From positions 31,051,024 through 31,115,023 of the forward strand of contig CM055113.1 of NCBI GenBank assembly GCA_029204225.1: a stretch of DNA of 64,000 bases. The letters are read 5' to 3'. Shown one piece after another: positions 1,894 to 59,862 of this stretch (its first letter is position 1; each line of letters begins with the position of its first letter). Source of the DNA: Diphasiastrum complanatum. Lineage: Eukaryota > Streptophyta > Lycopodiopsida > Lycopodiales > Lycopodiaceae. The notes beneath the pieces were generated by a model that saw nothing but the letters and a program-made list of their open reading frames with translations, did not search any database and was not told the origin of the DNA. The translations under genes and the position numbers were made by a program.

Positions 1894-2392
1894 GCCTATC
1901 TTAATTGCTACCTATAAGAACCCGTAAGGAACTTGTAAGTGGTTCGTAAAGAAACCTATAAGAAAACCTGTTATGAGGCCTTGAGATTATTGCCCGTAAC
2001 AAGCCCGTAAGGAAACTTCTTATGAGACACTACGATCATTGCATAAGAAGCCCGTAAGGAAACCTATTAGTGTATCTTATGGAGCGTGCCGCTTACCAAG
2101 GAGGTGACGACTTTCAACGGGAGTAGTGTACAATAAAGGCAACAATGTCGCCCATCTCCTCATCTTGACGCTCAACTCTCTTGCATGATCATGTTCAAGA
2201 CATCCACGTAATGGATGCCTCTTGCTTATTCTGCCTCTTGCTTAAAAAGCAGAATGTGCCACTGCTATTTTTGCAACATCCAAGTGGCATATTGCATGGC
2301 ATAATTGCAAGGAATAAATATTGTAAAAATTACATGGTCTTATTCCATTTCGTAATGCCTATTCTCTTTTGTAATTGTCATGTGAATTAAAG
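1894..2392 (+). repeat. Repeat R1, short uninterrupted copy
   Basis: About 500 bp with no coding capacity. Positions 1894-2028 match the reverse complement of 56769-56906, and positions 2029-2392 match the reverse complement of 47472-47850. The two distant segments therefore lie side by side here, which makes this either the empty-site version or an internally deleted version of the 8.9-kb block at 47851-56768. It contains three imperfect copies of a CCCGTAAGGAAACYT motif. It interrupts the copia gag on its left and abuts repeat R2 on its right. No terminal inverted repeats were recognised. Confidence 0.7.
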
Positions 2393-2408
2393 AAAAAGAC
2401 AGCCCAAG

Positions 2409-3565
2409 TGCTAATTATGTTTCATAAAACTTATGTGAAAAAAAGCAAATGGGTACCCATTACTCAATGGAAGGTGCTCGGGCAGAGGACATTCTGTCAA
2501 ATTTGAAGTCTCAAAAAATTTAGGAACAACCCCTCCAATACTCACCTAAAAATTTAAAAAAAAATCAATGGGCAAAATGTCTTCTCTAGGACGCCCTAAT
2601 ACATTATAATGAATGCACTATAATACATTTATAATACATTGTAGTGTGCACTACTTAGTAGGAGCAAGAGCTCGTTAACAGAGTGAACAAGAGCTATTTT
2701 TTGTGAACAAGAGCTAGTTAAGGAGTGAACAAGAGCTGTTTTTTGTGCTCGGATAATTGAGCGACTAGGTCCTGCACTAGATACTTCAATGGAGGAATTG
2801 GCAGCAACAAAGATACAAAAGATCGAAATGGCGAGAGCCATTCTTGAAGCAAAGGAAGCTTGCTTTGATTGTGCCCAACACAATGATGCCTGTGCTGCGA
2901 ACTTGGTGATTTCAATTAGAAGTGATAGGCCTCGCTGTGAGTTTGATTGTGCGGAACATATTCAAGCTACATAGATTTCAGTCGCTACTAGTTTAATTCT
3001 TCAGGATGTATATTTTATTTAAACCTATATGGATAGCCCTAGTTGCTAGATTGATTGTTCATAATGTTTATCTTATTTCATAGCGTACTTTGTCTTATCT
3101 TGTCCCTCACGTGAGATACAATATGCAGATCTCGCAAAAGAAGACGGACGTAATGCTATCTATCTCAGTATCTTGGAGCTGGGTAGTCTTACTCGGGAGG
3201 CGGAGGACCATGAGATGGCCTTAAGGGAGAGCTCGAGGTACTCCCAATTGGTTGCAAACCAAGAGCATAATTTCCAGTTAGCACGTTCCTTGACTGATTT
3301 GCCCAAAAGTGCATCATCTCCTTGCAGGTAACATCTTGGAGTTGGAATGAGGTCAAGCTTGCATGTTCTACATCCAATCACTAGAGGTGGACGATCGGAA
3401 CATGAGAAAGGAAAGAGAGATCCAGAAAACTTTGTTGGTGATGATCTTATTTGGAAAAGGGAAATTGCACAAACGTACCAGAAGTGGAAAGATCTAGCTG
3501 ACTATAAGAGTGGGCTCGAGGAAGTCTGCCAGATTTGCATAGAAAAAATACCCTCCGATCAGAAA
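2409..3565 (+). repeat. Repeat R2, copy 1, with exon-like coding segments
   Basis: Matches the reverse complement of 58620-59862 over about 1.2 kb. It contains coding-like segments conserved between the copies. One (about 2789-2974) reads MEELAATKIQKIEMARAILE followed by AKEACF and CAQHNDACAAN, and is probably an amphipathic or coiled-coil helix. A second (about 3128-3340) reads RNAIYLSILELG, then EMALRESSRYSQL; it follows an intron-like CAG at 3127 and ends at a possible donor near 3330. I do not recognise the protein. It may be a gene fragment carried by a mobile element; both copies look decayed. Copy 1 has one 20-residue MEELA unit where copy 2 has three. Confidence 0.6.
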
Positions 3566-8898: not shown

Positions 8899-9824
8899 AA
8901 ATATCCTAATAAATCATTATTATCATGGCACACCATACAACTAATTCAATAATTGAGCAAAATCTAGAGTATTGTAGAGTGTAGGATCTTGAGGATACAA
9001 AGTTTCACCCATCCACAATTACAAATTTGCCTTGTAATCTTTAATGATCCTCTGACACCTCTTTTCAATATAAGTAGAAATTCAGTAGGAATATTCAAAT
9101 GGAGATAATCCAATGTATTCATCGTAACAAGTACAAAAGAAATTACAAGCACCACATGTTCAAAACAAGTACTACAACTTTATTCCAAAGCATTTGGGAA
9201 TACATCTACTTATGTGAGACAAAATCATAAATTTAGTAAGAGTGATTCAGAGAGGACGCTTCTCTTTTTATTCCAATGTTGAGATGGTGCTCATATTTTA
9301 ATTACAACGTCAAGATGTTACTCAACTTCAAAATTGAAGTAAATGCAACTAGGCTTATATAATTATAATCAACATTTACACAACAATGGTTTAGGAAATA
9401 TGATTCACGACTATCTTGGTTAAACAAGTTAACAATAATTACAATTAGAACACCTGATTATATAGAAAAAATATGAGGCAATTGGGAGTAACAAGGTTTG
9501 ATAAGGCTAAACTTAACTTTTACAAAGCTAAGTTGAAGCTTTACAAAGCAAGCTAAAACTTTTTCAATGCTTAGAAGCTTAATCTCAAGTTTACTTTTGA
9601 GCATATAAAAGCTTCCGAGCCTGCGTGGATGCTTGGGAGTCTATGCCTCGCTATATGAGCCAATTTGAGTGAGAGTATGATGTACGAAACTCTGATTAAA
9701 TTTTGCACATGTTGCCTGAACACATGGTAGGTCCTCATTTCTCAAATGTCTGTTGTGTACCTCCCTGTCATGTGGAAAGTGATCGTTTGGACAAGGCCAA
9801 AACTTGTAGGCCCCAATCCCCATT
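8899..9824. other. AT-rich stretch, no gene seen
   Basis: About 0.9 kb of AT-rich sequence with short open frames only. Positions 9500-9625 show some recurrence of AAAGCTAAGTTGAAGC-like words. I see no RNA gene, element terminus or conserved motif. Confidence 0.5.
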
Positions 9825-10833
9825 TTAATAAGTGACAGCCCTCTTCAATTGGGGACCATCTATGACCCTCCACCTCCTCTCTTTAAAAGAGTGGGGATCA
9901 CAAATGACTTGTCTCTTTGTGTGCTTTCTCCCCAAAAGTAGAGACCAGTGTTGTGGGCAGGTATTGATAATTTTAATACATGAAGACATCACCAAAGCAT
10001 CATCATTTGAATTTTGAACATTGAACCCATCTTCATCATGAGTAATATTACCTTGCTTGTCTCCTTGATCTCTCTTCTTCTTGTAGCACTCACTTGCAAA
10101 GTGTCCTTTGATGCCACAATAGAAGCACTTTAGCTTTGACCTGTCTTTCTTTTTGCCACTTGAAGAAGCCTCCCCTTGATCTTGACCTCTAGACCACTTA
10201 CTTCTGCTTTTTCCCTTGAATTTTCCCTTGATGAACATAGCCTCCTCTCCAACTTGAGATGTTGATGAAGATCAACCTCTTGCTTGAAGCCCATATTCTT
10301 CATTGATCAAGATCCCTTGAAGATCAATCAAACTTGGAAAAGTTCTTTGACTGGCAAGACTTTGTACAATGTTAGCATGAGCATCCAACAAACCATTAAG
10401 AATAACTTGAACAAGCTCTCCTTCCTTAATGCTCTCATCAATGCAAGCTAACTCATCATTCAAAGCCTTCACTCTCAAAACAAAAATATTTGGACTCTCT
10501 ACATTCTTTTGAAACTTTGAAAGATTTGTCTTCTTAGAGTCAACACTCTAGAGGTAGACTTGGATTCATAAAGCTTCTTCAAAGCTTCCCAAGCCTCACT
10601 TGATGAAGTACACTTACCAACTTCCTTGAGAAGTTCATGTGTAGAGTTCTTTTAGCTCTCTTGTCATACCTCAATTGTTCTTGTTGTGTTGTTGGCCTCT
10701 CCTCAAAAGCTACAACAATATCCAAAACATCATTCATCTCAAGAAGTGATTCCATCTTCACCTTCCACAATGAATAGTTGCTTGAGGTAAGCCTATCATT
10801 GCCTTCCAACAAGTATCCACTTGATGTAGCCAT
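9825..10833 (-). mobile_element. Copia gag remnant related to element B
   Basis: The segment 10833-10579 encodes a gag N-terminus (SSNYSLWKVKMESLLEMND) close to that of element B (SSNYSTWKVRMESLLELNE at 16400). The segment 10478-10272 encodes the middle of gag, and 10238-9825 includes a CCHC zinc knuckle (CFYCGIKGHFASEC). No protease, integrase or polymerase follows. It is a broken fossil with about three breaks within gag, from a cousin of element B. Confidence 0.85.
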
Positions 10834-47471: not shown

Positions 47472-47850
47472 AAGCAACAATTTTTTTAATTAACATGACA
47501 ATTACACAAGAGAATAGGCATTATGATATGGAATAAGACTGTAATTTTTACAATATTTATTACTTGAAATTATGCCATGCAATACGCCACTTGGATGTTG
47601 CAAAACATCAGTGGCACATTCTACTTTTTATGCTGTCCAAAAAATGGACAGAATAAGCAAGAGGCATCCATTACGTGCATGTCTTGGACAAGAACATGCA
47701 AGAGAGTCGAGCGTCGAGATATGGGTGAAGTTGTTACCTTTATTGTACACTACTCCGTCACCTCCTTGTTAAGTGGGCACACTCAATAAGATACACTATC
47801 AGGTTTCCTTACGGGCTTCTTATGGCAATGATCGTAGTGTAATACGACGA
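47472..47850 (-). repeat. Repeat R1, copy 2, left segment
   Basis: Reverse complement of 2029-2392. The remainder of R1 continues at 56769-56906, on the other side of an 8.9-kb block. Confidence 0.75.
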
Positions 47851-48138
47851 CATTTGTTTTGGGACTTTGACCTGAAAAAGAGTAATCTTTTTTGGTGTTT
47901 TTTAATGGTCCTAGTTTTAGGCCAAAATCGTGGATTTTTTTAATAAATCTCTAAATTTTGTTTTTAAAAAAAGCCAAAAAATGCATATTTTAAATAAAGA
48001 ACTACAAGTTTTTTGTTGCAAACTTCATAAAACCATCATAATTAAAAAAATAATAATTCAAGAGAACAAATGATTTTTGAACTTCGAAATCCCATTGAAA
48101 TACAAAATAACTTAAATTATATTTGCACATTCTTTTTT

Positions 48139-48975
48139 TTAAAGTATATTTTCTAAGGAATTTTCACTGCTGCCTCTCAATTCAGAACTTGACATATTCT
48201 CAACACTCTCGTTTTCAGCTGATGAAGTGGAAGACCCGTCTTCTTCATCAGAGTCAACTGGCATGTCTTTCTCAGAATCCGCGTCTAATGTTGACAAAAA
48301 ACCTTGTAAATCAGCTTTTCTCTGTTGATGACAAGTGGAGGATGATGGTTTTTCAAGTAATCCAAGTCGTTCTTTCAATATAGATATTGTTGAATTTCGT
48401 AGATGATTGGTCATTGTTAATTCAAAATTAAATGCCAAAACATCTACATCCTGTAGATTCAAATCGTCGACTCTTGGTTGATTTTTTGACAATCTCTTTC
48501 TCTTGCCCTTTGGATCTACTTGCAATATTTCGAGTTCGTACCTTCCCAAAAAAACATTCGTTGAAATGGGGTGCAACCAATGGACACGTAGTACTTTTGT
48601 TTGATTGCTATTTTGAATAAAACCAAGTACTTTGGCAATCCAAAATGGACGTCCTTCATTGTTTTCTGAAGCTAGAAGTGCAACAAGGCTTCCAATTTGG
48701 ATTTCATTCAAATCACCGTGCCATTTCATTTTTGCAGCTTTTACACTTTGCCTATTCTTTCTTGAGCCCACATAAATTTCACGTTCCTCACCTTGCACAA
48801 GATGCAGGAAATCATTATCTCGAGGAAGATCTGAAGGTTCGACAATCGTAGTTGATGTTCCTAATTTATGAGGCCAATGAAATTCATCAGTTGTTGATGT
48901 ATGTTCGAGATTGAGCAAACTGATTTTTTGTTTCCTCGAAAAAGTCCATCCACCAATGTTGATCAAACTCATCAA
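48139..48975 (-). CDS. C-terminal part of the DUF7869 gene: chromatin-reader-like and acidic tail
   Basis: An open stretch of 278 codons. Residues about 90-145 (IQIGSLVALLASENNEGRPF followed by WIAKVLGF and LRVHWLHP) have the small-beta-barrel pattern of BAH, Tudor or chromo-barrel domains: a hydrophobic strand, a PFWIAKV strand, then a WxxP strand. Next comes a basic stretch (GKRKRLSKNQPR, possible nuclear localisation signal) and an acidic Ser/Glu-rich tail (DSDEEDGSSTSSAENESVE). Such FWIAKV-type domains often end DUF7869 proteins, in my recollection. It overlaps the previous open frame by about 90 bp in another frame, so the exon limits differ from the open-frame limits. Function unknown. 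Confidence 0.55.
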   Translation of the reverse strand: MMSLINIGGWTFSRKQKISLLNLEHTSTTDEFHWPHKLGTSTTIVEPSDLPRDNDFLHLVQGEEREIYVGSRKNRQSVKAAKMKWHGDLNEIQIGSLVALLASENNEGRPFWIAKVLGFIQNSNQTKVLRVHWLHPISTNVFLGRYELEILQVDPKGKRKRLSKNQPRVDDLNLQDVDVLAFNFELTMTNHLRNSTISILKERLGLLEKPSSSTCHQQRKADLQGFLSTLDADSEKDMPVDSDEEDGSSTSSAENESVENMSSSELRGSSENSLENIL

Positions 48976-49378
48976 AAAAATGATAAGCTGCTTGAATACT
49001 TGATTCCAAAAAATTTAATGAGGAAAATGGATCAATCTCACGATGTTCTCTTTGTGCCTTTTGTTCTTCTAGCAAGGACTTCAAGGGAGACAACACAACA
49101 AGCTTGATTTGAGTCGATGGAATGTTAAGCAAAAATTGAACTCCTTCAAGAGGTAGCCACGAAATTGAATTTGAAAATAGTTTGCCCCATAATAATATAA
49201 TGCTTGATTCGTTACATTTGATTTTAAACTGGTGCTGAAAGCTAATATTATTAATATTAGCTACGCATCGCTCTGTTTCGTTGGATGCCTTAACATAATC
49301 ACGAAAATCATATGTGTGTCTGATTAATGACACGTTTGGCTTTGGCACATACGATTCCTCAACAATGCTTTGAAGCAC
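48887..49378 (-). CDS. Middle part of the DUF7869 gene, unknown function
   Basis: An open stretch of 163 codons between the DUF7869 core and the tail. It contains IRHTYDFRDYVKASNETERC and a Trp-rich segment (QHWWMDFFEE). In DUF7869 proteins the core is followed by a similar region in which a histidine-containing HxF/YDFR-like segment recurs; I do not know its role. Composition and strand agree with the neighbours, so I treat it as part of one gene. Confidence 0.5.
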   Translation of the reverse strand: MLQSIVEESYVPKPNVSLIRHTYDFRDYVKASNETERCVANINNISFQHQFKIKCNESSIILLWGKLFSNSISWLPLEGVQFLLNIPSTQIKLVVLSPLKSLLEEQKAQREHREIDPFSSLNFLESSIQAAYHFFDEFDQHWWMDFFEETKNQFAQSRTYINN

Positions 49379-49926
49379 TGGTAATGAAAATGTTTCTTGC
49401 GTCTCAACCTCTTAGAAAAGCAACTAAACATTTGATCAATTTGATCGTGGGTATGTCCTACCAACAAAAATCCTAGTTTAACTTTTTTGAAAAAAAGTTT
49501 CTCCACTAGCATAGACAAGTATGCCAAAATAGTTTGATTTTTATTTTCCCTAGCAGTGTTGTCAAGCTGCAAATAAAGTATTTTTGGAAGATTTTCACCA
49601 AATTTGCAAATTATCTTATGTACAATGGTGATCGTCAAATTTGGATCATTTCGAACATTGGGATAGTTAAAAAAGACCTTGGACTCCAAAGTGCCATTAA
49701 ACACAAGTGCTCCAACGAGATGAACTTGAATAAAATTTGCCTCGTTCAAATTTTTGGGCACTCTGACAAAATGAGACAACATTGTCTTCTTTTGATCCAT
49801 GCCATCAATAACAAGTCCCAGATATTTTTGTGGACATTCCAAACATTTCTTTTGATGCTTGGCCAACTTTTTTCTTTCAACTGTTTGTTGATCTCTGTGC
49901 AGTTGAAGAGCTTTTGTAGCATCCAC
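49324..49926 (-). CDS. DUF7869-like core, possible RNase H-fold nuclease/transposase domain
   Basis: About 200 codons. The core reads YLGLVIDGMDQKKTMLSHF (residues about 36-54), LYLQLDNTARENKNQTILAY (about 115-134) and FLLVGHTHDQIDQMFSCFSK (about 151-170). Three acidic positions, DGMD, QLDN and the D of HTHDQID, each after a hydrophobic strand, resemble the strand-acid pattern of RNase H-fold nucleases. This matches the DUF7869 family as I know it; a transposase role is inference. A TTTTCAG acceptor precedes it near 49928 and an AAG|GTAAAT donor lies near 50056, so an upstream exon with CSTCELLKSA (about 50057-50125) belongs to the same gene. Confidence 0.7.
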   Translation of the reverse strand: MDATKALQLHRDQQTVERKKLAKHQKKCLECPQKYLGLVIDGMDQKKTMLSHFVRVPKNLNEANFIQVHLVGALVFNGTLESKVFFNYPNVRNDPNLTITIVHKIICKFGENLPKILYLQLDNTARENKNQTILAYLSMLVEKLFFKKVKLGFLLVGHTHDQIDQMFSCFSKRLRRKKHFHYQCFKALLRNRMCQSQTCH

Positions 49927-50056
49927 TGAAAATACAATGATTCACTTATTTAATAAAATAAAGATCATACTATAATGGTGTTCAAAAAGACTGCAACATA
50001 AATTGTTTTAAAACAGAAAGTATTAAAATGAATGACAAATTTGATTAATATTTACC

Positions 50057-50140
50057 TTCTCGTCATTGGTCTTTGCAAGTTGTTTTGCAGACTTTAACAA
50101 CTCGCAAGTGGAGCATATTGTCATTCATGATTTTTTGGGA
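50057..50140 (-). CDS. Short exon upstream of the DUF7869 core
   Basis: On the minus strand it reads CSTCELLKSAKQLAKTNDEK, then a GTAAAT donor. A CxxC-x-LK helix directly before the core is typical of DUF7869 proteins. Too short to appear as an open frame of its own. The right limit is uncertain. Confidence 0.5.
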
Positions 50141-50228
50141 ATCTTTAATAGTCCAAAATCTCTTTTCCAAATCTAAGAAAATATGGGTAACTCAAATAGG
50201 GAACATTTTTTGTTTTTGCAAACTCTTT

Positions 50229-50661
50229 CTACATAGAAAATATTTCTAATTTTGTAAAATTATCCGGCAAGTGAAAATATAAGAAATTAAGCAATTTTTC
50301 TTTGTGCACATCTATGAAATGCTTTAGCCAAGCAGTTGCATTCAAAGCATATGGAGAAACAGTTCGACCTTGTAAGGATCCCCGTAATGTTGGGTTTTTC
50401 TGAAGTCGTGCATGCATTCGTTGAAGCCGTGAGTTTTCGATTGCGTGAACTGCGACAAACCTCCAAAGTATTTAAAAAATACGAAAATGATTTTTTGTCC
50501 GGCCTCACTGTTGCACACAAATAGTAATTTCTCTCATCCTTACTTCGTAAAAAAAAGTTTGATCTTAATTCTTCAATTTCTCTGATACTCAGCTTTTGCA
50601 AACAACAGGATGAGTAGCAAATAATAATCCGTATCTTTCGAATCTCAGATTTTGTAATCAA
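50229..50661 (-). CDS. N-terminal Cys-motif region of the DUF7869 gene
   Basis: Two overlapping open stretches in different frames share this region. One has CCLQKLSIREIEELRSNFFL and RSKDERNYYLC; the other has AIENSRLQRMHARLQKNP and AWLKHFIDVHKEKL. Both patterns are familiar from the N-terminal part of DUF7869 proteins (a CC-C-L-E-I-R pattern, then a VC-x-F-type segment and a WI/LKxFID helix). The region is coding but its exact exon structure is not resolved here. Confidence 0.5.
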
Positions 50662-51335
50662 CTATTTTTGACGATTCATTAAATCAGGTGAGGATCTCAA
50701 GTCTCTCTTGTATTTTTCTTTTTGTTTAGAGTCTGATCTATAAATTGAACCTGTGACACTAGTAGGTGCTTGAACTGGCTGAGAGGGTGTTGGAATTTCA
50801 TGACTGGGAATTTTGGCTCCAACCCTAGGATGTTCTGGACCCTCAGAAGGCTCTAAATTTTTAACGACTATAGTCATTTTAGATTTAATACGATGAACAT
50901 CACTTTGAGAAGGTCTTCTACGAACATGAGAAAAGCTTGAACGTCGCGGATCAACAGACTTATGTGGATCTGTTGATTTACTAGAATTAGAACTGAGTGA
51001 ATTGAAGCTTTTGACTCATCACTCAATGATTCAACTTGTTCAAAAGAACAATGTTCTAGTTGTGCCAAGCCTGTATCTGAAGAGGAGGACGAGGTCAAAA
51101 GATTTGATACAAGCTGAGTTACAGGCGTCATTTCTTGAAAAGTACTTGCTTGAGGAATTTCAGATGATGAACGGGTAAATGATGACGATGCCACATTGTT
51201 TACCAAAATATGTTCAGATTCAAGAGTGACTTTATAAAAAAAGCTTTCATTGGGAATGTCAAATGAAGATGTTGCACTTGTGGCAACATATTGAGTTACA
51301 ACTACTGGAATAGAAGAGGTAGAACTACTTGACAT
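50662..51335 (-). CDS. Ser/Pro-rich N-terminus of the DUF7869 gene
   Basis: Open stretches 51335-50874 (MSSSSTSSIPVVVTQYVATS, many Ser/Thr, acidic patches) and 50877-50662 (PTPSQPVQAPTSVTGS followed by a basic KQKEKYKRD segment). Probably a disordered N-terminus with a nuclear signal. The ATG at 51335 is the first plausible start and faces the palindrome cluster. Confidence 0.4.
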
Positions 51336-51367
51336 CGTAACCTCAAATTTTTTTTTAACTATGTACT

Positions 51368-52421
51368 TATGCTAAGCATAGAACCGTTCAAATAGTTAAC
51401 ACCACACTAAATGTGCTCCTCAAACATAACTGCAACCTATGCTGGTCATAGAACAAATAAAAACCTATGCGAACCTCAATAGACGCACACATAAAAACCA
51501 ACTAAATGCAAATGAGCAACAAGCCTAAAAAGTAATTGGTTAATAAAAATTTCCGACGGCTACCATGCCTTAAATATTGTTTGGCAGCATTATTAGGGTT
51601 AGGGTTAGGTTTAGGGTTAAAATTAGGGTTAGGTTTGGACTGTCCGGGCTAATACTCGAGGTCGGCGTGGGGTGAAGTGAGTCGCGGCAACTTGGTCCCG
51701 AAGTAAGCTTGAGGACTGGCGTGAGATGGGGGTCTCAAAATTTTTTTTATTTAAGGACCATAGTCCAAGCATAACTCACCTCATTTGCGAATTCAGAAGC
51801 CCACATGCTGCCAGAGCAATCGCTACGACCAAGTCACGGTTTCTATAAGATTTTGCATACGTTCTCGCTTCCAAATTTCTTGACGGTAAGATTATTGTCA
51901 TTATCTACCTTTGCTCTATGCTTAGCATGGGTAATAAATTCTTGCATTAGAAAATATTCATATTTTAATTTGTATTCATCTTCTTGCAACATGGGTAACC
52001 TATGCTCAACATAGGTGCCTGCACCAGTCCTCTCCATTAACCTATGCTGAGCACAGGTTGTGCTCGGGTCCTTAGTAATATCCTATGCTCAGCATAGGAT
52101 TCCGGTTTAGCATATCCTATGCTCAACATAGGATTCCTCTTCCAACCTATGCTTAGCATAGGTTAGCAAGCAAATAGTGAAGACATCCTATGCTCAGCAT
52201 AGGTTGGACAAGATCGCGCGAGTAACGACCTATGTTGAGCATAGGATGTCTTCACAATTTGCCTGCTAACCTATGCTGAGCATAGGTTGGAACAGGACCA
52301 GAGATGAAAGCTATGCTCAGCATAGGTCGAAAGGAGGTTAGAATTGAAGAATCCCGCCTCCGTGCTATGCTAAGCATAAGTTGTTAGTAAGGACTCGACC
52401 ACAACCTATGCTTAGCATGGG
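51368..52421. promoter_or_regulatory. Cluster of palindromes CCTATGCTNAGCATAGG between divergent genes
   Basis: Thirteen copies in this interval: near 51368, 51916, 51999, 52041, 52082, 52116, 52146, 52187, 52229, 52270, 52310, 52365 and 52405. From 51999 to 52421 they recur every 30-55 bp. Each is an odd palindrome of up to 17 bases with any base in the centre; the core TATGCTNAGCATA is best conserved and the flanks are often AAC/GTT. Four more lie in the methyltransferase gene (52871, 54633, 54685, 54769). Dyad symmetry, multiplicity and position suggest binding sites of a dimeric protein encoded by the element, or an origin-like iteron array. GCTNAGC inside the core is also a plausible DNA-methylation target. 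Confidence 0.85.
51593..51637 (+). repeat. Interstitial telomere-like repeats
   Basis: About six degenerate TTAGGG/TTTAGGG units in a row. They sit between the Ser-rich N-terminus and the dense palindrome array. Confidence 0.85.
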
Positions 52422-52552
52422 TCGCTACTTGTATTTTCTTGTTTTACAACGCTTTGTCTCAGAAAAGTGATCATTTTGAGATGTTTAAGTAAGAAAATAT
52501 GTTGTATTTATAGTTTTTCTTTTCAAATTTTTTTAAAGATAAGAAAAAATTC

Positions 52553-52831
52553 ATGTACTATTTCACCAAAGGGGTCAACAACACAAAGCTTTCGGAGCTT
52601 TTTATTCATTTAGCAGAAAAGCCTGGCAGAGGAGACTCACAATTCAAAGTTCAAGGAAGATTGCTTGCTGATCAACCAGATGACGATCAAGAAGAAGTTT
52701 TTGTGAATATACTTGTAAAGGAGACGAATAAGTCTCATTCTATTTTCATTCTGAATGAGACTATGATAAAGATCCGACTTTGTCAAGACGAGGCCATCAA
52801 AGCCTATTTTGATAAAGCTCTAGTTACTTTG
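52553..52831 (+). CDS. First visible exon of the methyltransferase gene
   Basis: Starts MYYFTKGVNNTKLSELFIHL and continues with an acidic patch (QPDDDQEEVFVNILVK), ending at a GTGAGT donor at 52832. The next exon begins after CAG at 52967-52969. This N-terminal segment has no domain I recognise. The start lies about 130 bp right of the last palindrome of the cluster, so the array could be its promoter. Confidence 0.5.
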
Positions 52832-52969
52832 GTGAGTAATTATAAAATATATTTTTAATCATGTTTGTTTCATGCTTAGCATAGTTGTTATTAGATATAA
52901 AATTATTTAAACTTTTAGATTTAAGCTTTTGGTCATTATATTTTAAACTTGATTTTTGTTTCTGTTCAG

Positions 52970-53935
52970 AACATGAAGCAATGCTTAAAAATGGTTTTAG
53001 TTGCTATTGCTGAGGGAAAAGATCCGGTCTATTCATTATGGAGTTCAAAAGGTGTATCTATTGGACCTCGCAAGCCCGCTTCTACCACTGCTCAGGTCAT
53101 AAAGCCAGCCTCTGAAAATGTTGAGGATGAAACCGTAGCTGTCCCTCCTCCCAAAAAAAAAGATCTCATAATATTTCTGAGACTTCGCCCACTAGACCTA
53201 AGTCACGCCCAAAGACCATGGCTACACATCGTCATAAGTCCATCCCTTCTGCTGAAAGCAAAAAAACCACCACCGAACCATCTTTGTCGCTACCTGGTGC
53301 ATCCATCCGCCCATTACAAGACAACTCCAAACTTGTCAAATTAAGAGAGGATATCCATAAAACAAAAAAAATAAAAGAAACAACTTTAATTTTAGACATA
53401 AATCAGTGTGATAGGCCACCTGTAGACCTAATAACAGGAGACAACCCAATGGAAGTTAGAGAGCCTAATGAAACATATGTACATAATTTAAAAATAAAAT
53501 TTAAAGATCATACACAAGCCATAGTTACTCCCTTTGTTGTTTTAGTTTATCCCAACGAATACAACGATGTTGCAAATTTTAATTTTTCTTTATTAGATTC
53601 ATATCATTTTTTTTGTTTTTGGGAGGATACACAGTTTACAAGCTCGAAAACAATTATCTCAAGAATATCTCCATATCCCAAGCTTTAGAACTGTGAGTGC
53701 CATTGCATTTGCTGGCCTGACAGTGGAAGAAGTGAAATTATTGGTTTGGGACCACAATATTGATCAGGACTACCGGAGGAAGATGACCGTGATACAAAGA
53801 ATTCGTTTTTTTCACAAAGAATACATGAGAGTCTCCAAAGCAGGAGATGTGAATCAACTTGAGCTGAAAGCACTATGTGCTCAAGAGACAGACCTGTCTT
53901 TTTTATTCGAAAAATCCTACGTAGAGCCTTACTAA
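52970..53935 (+). CDS. ParB-like or linker region of the methyltransferase gene
   Basis: Three open stretches (to 53344, 53218-53688, 53693-53935). The first has a Pro/Ala-rich linker (PRKPASTTAQVIKPASENVE). The middle has PVDLITGDNPMEVREPNETY, then a hydrophobic strand (AIVTPFVVLVYPNEY). The last has IAFAGLTVEEVKLLVWDHNI and IQRIRFFHKEYM, a helical pattern. The order recalls ParB-like domains that precede methyltransferases in phage-type proteins, but the match is loose. Frame changes make the exon structure unclear. Confidence 0.4.
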
Positions 53936-54120
53936 ATACGATAATTTTTTTCAGCTTGCTTTTCGCAGTGACCAGGTAGTTTGTTTGGCTATGCTCGTCA
54001 TGGAATGCTCTGGTCATAATATATGTTATAATCTTTTTAGATTGTTTATATCAGACTAAAATTTTAACTCAATTTTAATATTGGTTAAATTCTTTATCAA
54101 TTAATTTTTTTTTTTATTTC

Positions 54121-54600
54121 AGATGTGGGCCCTTGTTGATAAAATTTTTGATAAGTGAGAAACTTTTCAAATAAAAGGCCAACTTGCACAGGGTGTCTCA
54201 AAGTCCAAACAAAAAGTTATGAGCACTCAAACTTTGAAGTCAATCCCTACTGAAATGAGAGTATCCAAGTGGAAGAATATGCAAGGGATTAGCTCTTCAG
54301 AGCTAATAATAAGTGTTCTTTCAAGAGTTGCCAATGGTCAACTTTCTCTGGCAAAAAATGAGAAAAAAATTTCAGAGGTAATAATCATAATTTAAATATT
54401 TATTTTCATGTTACCTTTTTTAATAAAATGATTTTCATAATTTAGTTGGATTTTTAACAATTATATTTTTTAAATACAGGCACAAATTATTTATGAAAGT
54501 TCAAGAAGCCCTTGTGACAGGGTTAAATTGTCAAAATTTCGATGAGTGCAAGAGGCTTTATCCTCTAAGCAGCCAAAATGAAGCCCTGAGTGTATTTTTT
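54121..54600 (+). CDS. Helical segment(s) of the methyltransferase gene
   Basis: After a TTTCAG acceptor near 54120 the frames encode MWALVDKIFDK, QKVMSTQTLKSIPTEMRVSK and ELIISVLSRVANGQLSLAKN, then a possible donor near 54380 and acceptor at 54480. The content is alpha-helical and Lys-rich; no domain recognised. The frame is not continuous throughout. Confidence 0.35.
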
Positions 54601-54889
54601 TATTTTGTTTAGAGACATGGTATTTATTTCACCCATGCTTAGCATAGGTGCTTATTAATTGTTTCTTTTCTATATTCTATGTCTCCTATGCTAAGCATAG
54701 CTTTTTCTTTATTTAATTATTTTTTTTTTATAAGTTAAGTCTCCTATTCTATTTTTTATTTTTTGTCTCCCATGCTAAGCATAGTTTTTTCCTTTTCAAT
54801 CTCCCGAAGACAAAAAAAACAAAGTTCTTCCAGACCAATTCAAGAGACATATTCTAAAGGCAAAAGCAAAAAAAAAGAAAAGGGAGAGA

Positions 54890-55245
54890 TTGGCACGGGG
54901 TGAGACTATTGCGGAGGAGGATCCATTAGAGACCTACCTTCCCAAAAGTGTCGATGATCAATCATGCTTTTACCCTGTTGAGGAGGGCGATTGTAGAGAA
55001 ATTTCAAATTTTTTAAGAAAAAGACCTTATACACTCTGCATCGCCGATATACCATATGGATTTCAGAAGAAGGAATCATTAAATGATGATACTCCTTTCA
55101 AATTCACTGAAATCCATAATTTTATGCAGGGCTTTCTTGAAGTCACATCTTCTCCAATTTGGAGAGTTGTTATTTTTCATTCTTCTTGGCAGTCACAAAA
55201 AGCTCTACTAACTTTCTGTAATGTGGGAATTGAGAATGCTGTGTG
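54890..55245 (+). CDS. DNA methyltransferase exon with catalytic motif IV
   Basis: Encodes FLRKRPYTLCIADIPYGFQK, where ADIPYG is a variant of the (D/S/N)PPY catalytic motif IV of amino-methyltransferases, and later IWRVVIFHSSWQ, typical of the next strand in beta-class enzymes. It ends at a G|GTAAG donor (55246). The substrate base (N4-cytosine or N6-adenine) cannot be told from DIPY. The start is not certain; upstream is a Lys-rich segment (KRERLARGE). Confidence 0.75.
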
Positions 55246-55361
55246 GTAAGTTCTTAAGTTCCTGAATTATCAATTCATATGTTTATTCATAATTTTATTT
55301 TAAATTTTGTATTTTAACATTAAAATTTTAAACTGATTTTACTTGTAATGTTTCATGTCAG

Positions 55362-55995
55362 GAACTCGGGAGGAGTTCGACTTTGCAATGAAATAGAATA
55401 CATAACCATCGGTTATTATTTTTTAGATGGCAAACACTCGATGCTGTATTATAACACTTCCGGACTGACAAATTTTGGAAACTTGTTCCAGTATCCAGCT
55501 GTGACAAAGAAATTAAAAAATCTAATGACGGGTTCCGTGGCTTGTCCCTACCAAACGTCACAACAATTAATTAATCATTTAATTGATATTTTTTCTCACC
55601 CAGCTGATTGAATTTTAGATTTATTTAGCGGTAGCGGCACTACGAGCGCATGTGCTATTCAGAAAGGTAGATATGTTTCTGCAGTAGATTTAGATACTAA
55701 TTTAGTTGATTTTATAAAAATGAGAATGAAATCTCTTTCAATTTTGCCAAATGAATTATCTGTGGTGGAAAAGAGTTTGGATAGCGAGGATACAATAATT
55801 CCCTTGTTCAAGGAACCTCGGCCTCCTACTAGCGAAAAAGTAGACGACACAGGAAAATTTGCTGATGTCTTGGTTCAAGATTACAGTGTAGTAACTGTAG
55901 TTGAGAAAATTGTAGAAGAGGTGCCACTTGATAGTACAATGGCTACTCAAAAAAAATCAAAAGAAAAAGATGTAAATGACATCAATGATTTTTGA
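55362..55995 (+). CDS. DNA methyltransferase exon with motifs X and I, and C-terminal tail
   Basis: After a TCATGTCAG acceptor the frame encodes RNSGGVRLCNEIEYITIGYY, a target-recognition-like part, then CPYQTSQQLINHLIDIF (motif X, compare QKPxxLLxxLI) and ILDLFSGSGTTSACAIQKGR with YVSAVDLD (motif I, the S-adenosylmethionine loop FxGxG). The order IV, recognition region, X, I defines the beta class. The tail is acidic and Lys-rich, ending KEKDVNDINDF. The product would transfer a methyl group to DNA. Beta-class enzymes occur in bacteria and phages and have been reported in a liverwort. Confidence 0.82.
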
Positions 55996-56768
55996 AAATA
56001 AAAAATTCTCTTTTGTTTTAAAGAATAATTGTGTTTATATTTTTTGATGTATTGTGTTTTGAATTCTTTTTTATTGATTTAATACTTTTAAATTTATTTT
56101 TTAACGATTTAAAATTTTAAAATTTGAAATATTTTAAAGATTTTAACATTGATAATTATTACCAAAAATTAAAATTATAATGATTTGTCTAGTTTACAAT
56201 ATTTTAATTTTAGATGTGTTTTCATAATATTTTTTGTAAAAAAAATATTGTTAAAAATTATAGGAAATGAAAAAAAATTTATTTTTTTCAGGGTGATTTT
56301 GCATTTATTTAATGTTTAAATATTTAATAAGCTTACGTGGGTGTAAGTAAAGATTTTTATGAATTTAAAACTCTAAAAAATATTGATTCAAATTTTTAAC
56401 ATAATTTTAAAAATATTTTTTTCGATACAAGTATTTTAATTTAGGAAACTTTTAAAATTCCAAAAAAAAGAAACTATAACTTTTGTTTTTAGAAAGCAAA
56501 AAATATTTTTTAGGTATTTTAGTGGTTGTGTATCTAATGATATTATTTTAAATAGTATATTATTTAATATAAGCTAATTTTAAGTTATTTATAAAACTCT
56601 ATTGACCAAATTTTTGTAGCTTAAATTATTTTCTTGCAAAATACAACATTTTTATATCATTAGAATATATTTATTTGAAGCATTTTAAATTTATATACTT
56701 TTTTAAAAAATTTAATAAATTTCAAAAAAATGGGTCTTTAAGTCATTTTTCTATTTTTTGGTCATCAT
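55996..56768. other. Very AT-rich right end of the candidate element
   Basis: About 0.77 kb of A/T runs with no open frames. It would be the 3' untranslated and subterminal part of the element. Confidence 0.5.
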
Positions 56769-56906
56769 GTTGTGCCTCGTAACAAGTTTTCTTACAAGCT
56801 TGTTATGGACAATAATCGCAAGACCTGAAAACAGGTCGTTTCCTTACAAGTTTCTTTATGAACCACTTACAGGTTCTTGATAGATAGTGATCAAGATAGG
56901 TGAGAT
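56769..56906 (-). repeat. Repeat R1, copy 2, right segment
   Basis: Reverse complement of 1894-2028. Together with 47472-47850 it reconstitutes the R1 unit, separated by the 8.9-kb block. Confidence 0.72.
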
Positions 56907-58619: not shown

Positions 58620-59862
58620 CTCGTGGAGGGTTTTTATTCCATGCAAATCTGGCAGACTTTGCTGAGCCCACTCTTATTGTCAACTAGATCTTTCCGCTTC
58701 TGGTACGTTTGTGCAGTTTCCCTTTCCCAAATATCATCACCAACAAAGTTTTCTGGACGGCTCTTTCCTTTCTCCTATCCGATCGTCCATCTCTAGTGAT
58801 TGGATGTAGAACATGCAAGCTTGACCGCATTCCAACTCCAAGATGTTCACTGCAAGGAGATGATGCTCTTTTGGTGAAATTAGCCAAGGAACGTGCAAAC
58901 TGGAAATCATGGTCTTGTATTGCATCCAATTGGGATAACCTTGAGGTCTCCCTTAGGGCCATCTCCAGGTCCTCCGCCTTCCGATTAAGCTTACCCAGCT
59001 CCAAGCTCCTGAGATAGATAGCATTGTGTCTGTCTTGTTGTGCGAGACTTGCATATTGTATCTCCCGTGAGGGACAGGATAAGCCAAAGTACGCTACGTA
59101 ATAATTGAGATAAAATAAACATTCTGAACAATCAATCTTGCAACTAGTGCTATCCATATAGGTTAGAATAAAATATACATCCTGAAGAATTAAACTAGTA
59201 GCGACTGAAATCTATGTAGCTTGAATATGTTCCGCAAAATCAAACTCACGGCGACGCCTATCTCTTCTGATCTAAATCACCGAGTTTGCAGCACAAGCAT
59301 CATTGTGCTGGGCAAAATCAAAGCAAGCTTCCTTAGCTTCAAGAATGGCTCTCGCCATTTCGATCCTTTGTCTCTTTGCTGCTGCCAATTCTTCCATTAT
59401 TCTGGCTCTCGCCATTTCGATCTTTTGTCTCTTTGTTGTTGCCAATTCTTCCATTATTCTGGCTCTCGCCATTTCAAACTTTTGTCTGTTTGCTGATGCC
59501 AATTCTTCCATTGAAGTATCCAGTGCTAGACCTAGTCGCTCAGTTATGAGCACAAAAAGCAGCTATTGTTCACTCCTTAGCTAATAAGAGCTCGTTTCTG
59601 TAAATGAGCTTCTGCTCCTACTAAGTAGTGCACACTACAATGTATTATAGTGCATGCATTACAATGTATTGGGGTGCACTAGAGAGGACATTTTGCCCAT
59701 GAAAGCTTTTTAGAATTTTTAGGTGAGTAATGGAGGGCCGACCCTAAATTTTTGAGAATTCAAATTTGGCAGAATGTCCTATGCCCGAGCACCTTCCATT
59801 GAGTAATGGGTACCTATGCTTTTATTCACATAAATGTTATAAAACACATTAGCACTTTCAAA
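58620..59862 (-). repeat. Repeat R2, copy 2, with exon-like coding segments
   Basis: Inverted relative to 2409-3565. The minus strand encodes, at 59553-59272, three tandem MEELAxxKRQKIEMARARI units followed by EAKEACFDFAQHNDACAAN, and at 59157-58684 a segment with RHNAIYLRSLELGKLNRKAE and DLEMALRETSRLSQL. Residues shared with copy 1 are conserved in spacing. The protein is unknown; the three 20-residue units are probably a coiled coil. The 60-bp units lie at about 59342-59515. Confidence 0.65.

Follow-up and report, generated by a model that had tools for sequence, protein, structure and literature searches.

A multicopy transposon of Diphasiastrum complanatum carrying a DUF7869 gene and a ParB-like DNA methyltransferase gene

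The window analyzed here, a stretch of 64,000 nucleotides from Diphasiastrum complanatum (assembly GCA_029204225.1, contig CM055113.1, positions 31,051,024 to 31,115,023), contains an 8931-bp insertion that is one copy of a multicopy mobile element present at unrelated loci of the host genome. The element is bounded by terminal inverted repeats (TIRs) and target site duplications (TSDs) and carries two divergent genes, encoding a DUF7869 protein and a DNA methyltransferase with a predicted ParB-like domain, together with an array of palindromes. We regard it as a Sola-like cut-and-paste transposon whose ParB-methyltransferase would bind the element's own palindromes and methylate the element in cis, a reading to which we give a probability of roughly 0.55. 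An earlier note, made from the letters of the window alone, had proposed an undescribed, self-methylating mobile element pairing the two genes; self-methylation is plausible, and the ParB-like domain, the palindrome array, the TIRs, the TSDs, and the decayed state of the copy are additions to that proposal.

Borders and recurrence of the element

The borders were set by comparison with other copies, and the following features were assigned.

47841..56771: whole element; borders recur in other loci
47837..47840: left TSD, GTGT; R1 at 1929-2395 has a single copy
56772..56775: right TSD, GTGC; three of four bases equal the left TSD
47841..47851, plus strand: left TIR, AACACGATGAC in most copies and AATACGACGAC in the window
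56761..56771, minus strand: right TIR, reverse complement AACATGATGAC
47481..47840: host repeat R1, left part, by alignment to intact R1
56772..56876: host repeat R1, right part, by alignment to intact R1
1929..2395, minus strand: uninterrupted R1, the empty site

By blastn, the R1 halves at 47481-47840 and 56769-56876 matched 2395-2027 and 2033-1929, respectively; because they align to one uninterrupted copy, a single repeat was split by the element. The insertion and the split R1 had been recognized in the earlier note, with borders at 47851 and 56768, now moved to 47841 and 56771, and with the intact copy at 1894-2392, now 1929-2395. The left border was also found in loci L020, L021, L024, L029, L030, L033, and L034, and the right border in L020, L021, L024, L027, L032, L035, L036, and L037. 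The lack of a second copy with the same borders, named in that note as one case against the element, is excluded by these shared borders.

Exact 4-bp TSDs were present in four of the six copies having both ends, namely L021 (TTAA), L024 (GATA), L030 (AACT, taken with L035), and L037 (TCAA). The remaining members of this set were the window copy, with three of four bases matching, and L034, for which both ends were in hand (with L036) and a TSD was absent; L020, despite having both termini, was omitted because its right half is inverted. The 11-bp TIRs match at 10 of 11 positions. The L037 copy, whose left TIR is short by six bases, is nested in another copy of the same element (L037:36-554 and 9384-9881), and the window element carries the L037 insertion site undisturbed (GTGCTCAAGAGACAG), which constitutes a second empty site. 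Telomere-like TTAGGG/TTTAGGG repeats at 51593-51636, beside the palindrome array, were rejected as an element end because of their internal position. The CpG observed/expected ratio was 0.62 in 47841-56771 versus 0.38 in the remaining window, which could reflect reduced decay of 5-methylcytosine (5mC) or a younger age.

The genome searched comprised 1.745 Gb in 5176 contigs. A DUF7869 search gave 2954 first-look candidates, 150 of which were scored, all above the cut-off. Twenty-seven loci of about 10 kb around a DUF7869 match were fetched, 20 picked by eye along the match list and seven for profile coverage resembling the window lineage, and they are therefore a non-random sample. Fourteen of them matched the element by blastn (L020-L025, L027, L029-L034, and L037), and 13 did not (L009-L019, L026, and L028). 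The methyltransferase gene was found in 11 of the 14 element-lineage loci (L023 holds only its first 41 residues) and was divergent from the DUF7869 gene in nine, in agreement with the proposed pairing; L020 and L027 carry it in rearranged copies whose halves are inverted. Within the stretches fetched, the gene was not found in L022, L025, and L029 or in any of the 13 loci of other DUF7869 lineages. Four copies of these other lineages end near ...GACARTGTT (L012, L017, and L018, and L019 with GATAGTGTT), so AACAY termini may be common.

DNA searches with the methyltransferase part and the DUF7869 part gave 1428 and 1983 candidates, respectively. The best 40 of the 1428, besides the window, showed 81-92% identity and lay on many large contigs, and the best 40 of the 1983 showed 91-96% identity. 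Comparison of the first DUF7869 match list with that of the methyltransferase part revealed further divergent pairs less than 6 kb apart on contigs C5 (55943608, 55950063), C3 (42317086, 42311366), and C2797, the last with the spacing seen on C3 and perhaps a duplicate contig of it; on C15, the two matches lie on one strand, 3.4 kb apart. The presence of copies at unrelated loci, together with the common borders, TIRs, TSDs, and empty sites, bears out the mobile element predicted earlier.

The DUF7869 gene and the ParB-methyltransferase gene

Both genes of the window copy contain frame changes and in-frame stops, and their features are as follows.

48139..51335 (approximate), minus strand: DUF7869 gene (gene 1), transposase candidate, decayed copy
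49202..49755, minus strand: DUF7869 domain with DGMD, QLDNTARENKN, and GHTHDQID, as two Pfam stretches in two frames
52553..55995 (approximate), plus strand: ParB-like and DNA methyltransferase gene (gene 2), several exons, decayed copy
53365..53933, plus strand: ParB-like region, DINQCDRPPVDL ... WDHNIDQDYR, from alignment A1 and the fold of relative P0117
55037..55063, plus strand: methyltransferase motif IV, CIADIPYGF
55357..55611, plus strand: motif X exon
55615..55644, plus strand: methyltransferase motif I, LDLFSGSGTT, S-adenosylmethionine (AdoMet) pocket

The DUF7869-like gene of the earlier note was confirmed by a match to PF25273 on window:49324-49941:- (E 6.9e-41; 140.4 bits versus a curated cut-off of 26), the second DUF7869 stretch having an E-value of 4.9e-06. 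The predicted fold of relative P0012 is RNase H-like, with three conserved Asp residues in the expected elements; Foldseek alone on the DUF7869 model gave no hit under E 0.001, the best being Mos1 at 0.013. Both the predicted fold and the conserved acidic positions agree with a DDD transposase, suggesting this function for DUF7869. The closest named proteins include those of Ceratopteris, Adiantum, and Riccia, consistent with the element of a seedless plant envisaged earlier, and DUF7869 was found in proteins of Chara, ferns, a liverwort, a lancelet, a coral, and a sponge. Scanning of viral contigs with the DUF7869 alignment did not find relatives. In P0081 from the lancelet Branchiostoma lanceolatum, DUF7869 is joined to PF02902, a Ulp1-type protease domain that occurs in other transposons as well.

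The joined C-terminal plus-strand pieces of gene 2 matched PF01555 (E 4.6e-12; 46.8 bits versus a cut-off of 26.7), and their motif order IV (ADIPYGF), X, I (DLFSGSGTT) is the permuted beta order, as the earlier note had read it. The best sequence matches in the PDB were CcrM (E 3.1e-6), RsrI, and MboIIA. PF01555 was also matched by Adiantum P0117, which in addition matched PHROG 498, a phage DNA methyltransferase (E 1.6e-15). Beta-class amino-methyltransferases have the catalytic motif (D/N/S)PP(Y/F/W). The corresponding residues depart from this pattern, being DIPY in the window, L021, L024, and L031, NIPY in L020, DISY in L027, and DAPY, EAPY, or DALY in Adiantum P0116, P0130, P0117, and P0129; judged by these residues, the catalytic motif is a variant of the consensus. 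Passages of PMC8885841 give DPPY as the catalytic motif for N6-adenine methylation. The codon preceding motif I is TGA in the window and L021, TGG in L030, and TAG in L031, and programmed read-through of a stop is not favored because of the last two. The divergent arrangement described earlier stands; among the introns, a GTAAGT...CAG junction in the methyltransferase gene is conserved between copies, and the others were assigned from the sequence alone.

The joined plus-strand protein (912 aa) used as a query gave zero matches at E 0.01. A shorter query lacking motif I retrieved 16 relatives at E 1 or better: four from Adiantum nelumboides, one from A. capillus-veneris, and, from ENA, eleven unnamed proteins, which end after the ParB part, probably at exon limits. 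The model of P0117 was good in the ParB part alone (10-residue means 63-91 over residues 91-230), and the methyltransferase part was poor. ParB, Noc, KorB, and PadC headed the VIA list for this relative (model 104-237), followed by sulfiredoxins, and this region thus has the predicted fold of the ParB N-terminal domain. The nucleotide motif of ParB/Noc proteins is GERR; GGxHS takes its place in the relatives from ENA and in reading frames of L027, L031, and L033, and in the window copy the GG motif sits at a frame change. No relatives were found in viral contig scans with the methyltransferase and its alignment, no match in phage tblastn with P0119, and no meaningful match in a sequence search of solved structures with alignment A2.

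Differences within the family, expressed as third versus the mean of first and second codon positions, gave ratios of 0.59-1.58 for the DUF core and 0.64-1.54 for the methyltransferase exon, and against the window the joined methyltransferase pieces gave 0.60 (L030), 0.99 (L034), 0.88 (L021), and 2.06 (L033). Because the within-family differences are even across codon positions, these copies decay freely. Between families, the ratio was 3.15-4.11 for DUF7869 (versus L022) and 1.99 for the ParB-methyltransferase versus L031 (153/118/269, with a few codons at overlapping pieces counted twice), where 56% of the third positions differed. Given this excess at third positions, the two proteins probably kept their function during the divergence of the families.

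The palindrome array and the proposed mechanism

The palindrome CCTATGCTNAGCATAGG occurs at the following places.

51366..52421: main array, running from where the DUF7869 gene starts across the interval that separates the divergent genes
52869..52885: one degenerate palindrome, flanked by coding pieces and probably intronic
54632..54785: three palindromes between methyltransferase coding pieces, probably in an intron

It gave 17 matches at up to three mismatches, compared with 0.20 expected and with none in 100 shuffles (0/100), which excludes chance. Eighteen sites within two mismatches of CTATGCTNAGCATAG lie inside the element, and the remaining 55 kb of the window have none; from 51999 onward the main array advances mostly in steps of about 41 bp. 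The numbers per locus were 17 in L021, L030, and L034, 16 in L037 (one in the surrounding copy), 15 in L020, 10 in L033, nine in L022, six in L023, three in L027, L031, and L032, two in L025, and zero in L024, L029, and each of the 13 loci from other DUF7869 lineages. In L022, a sister family whose DUF core shares only 76% identity, the array repeats every 28 bp (L022:4932-5302) and its palindrome variants are altered on both arms (CTTATGCTCAGCATAAG). All three inner ATG/CAT pairs, taken singly, were unchanged in 126 of 131 sites from 12 sources, a set biased toward the consensus because it was taken at up to four mismatches (L037 was left out; window 45941, outside the element, is a chance match). 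This conservation suits a dimeric binding protein, for which ParB would be the obvious candidate, and makes the array a candidate parS-like array.

Given this anatomy, we infer methylation, ParB binding, and their purpose as follows. DUF7869 would be the transposase, a predicted RNase H-like DDD enzyme cutting at the AACAYGATGAC ends, with insertion via a 4-bp staggered cut, whose footprint was observed. Gene 2 would provide a ParB-like protein fused to a bacterial-type beta-class DNA amino-methyltransferase. The ParB part may bind, as a dimer, both the palindromes of the promoter region common to the two genes and those within the gene 2 introns, and bound ParB would keep the enzyme on the element or load it there, leading to adenine-N6 or cytosine-N4 methylation in cis. 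The likely benefit would be either regulation of the element's promoter by the element itself or evasion of host silencing through a mark that the host does not take for 5mC. More tentatively, a bacterial ParB-parS clamp may have been turned into a self-marking device that loads at the palindromes, slides along the element, and deposits N4-methylcytosine (4mC) or N6-methyladenine (6mA) on it, a transposon-encoded mark of plant DNA separate from host 5mC; we consider this version possible and clearly less probable than the general one.

Methylation times transposition in a replication-coupled manner in the case of Dam and IS10. The methyltransferase could likewise modify the transposon ends or palindromes to time transposition and not to escape silencing, a doubtful but reasonable alternative given that one promoter region rich in symmetric sites is common to both genes and that effects of methylation on transposition are discussed, in passages of PMC3627910, for virus-borne Mariner. 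However, each end is separated from the main array by 3.5 kb or more, the closest palindrome lies some 2 kb short of the right end, and the terminal repeats contain no palindrome. Slightly less probable again is a captured passenger of no benefit to the element, with the palindromes serving as promoter or transposase sites. The three lineage loci without the gene, of which L022 retains palindromes, and its absence from the 13 fetched loci of other lineages are what such a passenger would leave, whereas the third-position bias between families and the relatives in Adiantum indicate that the gene has been maintained; moreover, L025 and L029 look truncated, their matches ending at window 51762 and 50764, respectively.

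A centromere-like partition site, at which ParB on parS would tether an extrachromosomal circle and the methyltransferase would be secondary, is improbable: it would account for a ParB fold together with an array of symmetric sites, but no ParA was among the Pfam matches of the window open reading frames (ORFs) and joined proteins, and the copies are chromosomal, with TSDs. A chance neighborhood of two unrelated repeats, favored only by the decayed state, is refuted by recurrence, since the same divergent order is present at nine fetched loci with common borders at the ends found and is kept in the divergent family L031.

Relation to known systems and other repeats in the window

The element resembles the Sola superfamily in its 4-bp TSD, 11-bp TIR, and size, and its transposase candidate may also be of the DDD type and related to that of Sola; Sola elements have a DDD transposase, a 4-bp TSD, TIRs from 11 bp, and mostly 2-9 kb, and have been reported in a moss (PMC10741241). 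Repbase classes are covered in PMC4455052. Sola2 elements also acquire accessory genes (PMC3627910), whereas a ParB-methyltransferase is not mentioned for Sola in the passages on these elements (PMC10741241, PMC3627910), and the TSDs of the present element (GTGT, TTAA, GATA, AACT, and TCAA) differ from the AWWT of Sola2. The comparison with DIRS elements made earlier was rejected: no Pfam match to a reverse transcriptase or tyrosine recombinase was present in 10 ORFs and four joined window proteins, and the element instead has TIRs, TSDs, and a predicted DDE-type fold.

The virus-borne Mariner-2_PGv and Mariner-1_OLpv, reported in 2013, are likewise DNA transposons with a DNA methyltransferase gene (PMC3627910), but they differ in having a Mariner transposase, a separate endonuclease gene, and other methyltransferase types and in residing in giant viruses, and the passages on them mention neither ParB nor a palindrome array. 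The literature search, whose coverage excluded subscription journals, found, among the papers listed, no report of a transposon like the present one and none naming DUF7869; this accords with the undescribed element supposed in the earlier note, but a methyltransferase in a DNA transposon has a precedent in these Mariners. In Bacillus cereus Bce_0392, too, ParB is joined to an adenine methylase (PMC5512222), but that gene is bacterial, whereas the present one sits, with introns, in a plant transposon that has palindromes of its own. The bdelloid rotifer N4CMT is a PF01555 permuted amino-methyltransferase captured by a eukaryote and is said to have no eukaryotic homologs; it is a host gene whose chromodomain targets transposons, whereas the plant gene is carried by the transposon (PMC8885841). 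TET/JBP transposons are also cut-and-paste elements with a DNA-modification enzyme, but that enzyme acts on 5mC, whereas the plant amino-methyltransferase would add a mark (PMC12730594).

A multicopy plant family with a PF01555 enzyme, a predicted ParB fold, and an adjoining, conserved array of palindromes would offer a concrete source and target, open to testing, for a 6mA or 4mC mark. The use of either modification in plant DNA is disputed.

Elsewhere in the window, direct repeats 97-100% identical and 4-6 kb apart were found at 12028-12327/17815-18114, 33770-34069/39240-39539, and 41132-41340/44937-45145, and these are perhaps long terminal repeats of young retrotransposons. Long inverted repeats at 2788-3556 and 58625-59398, 86-92% complementary, represent another dispersed repeat.

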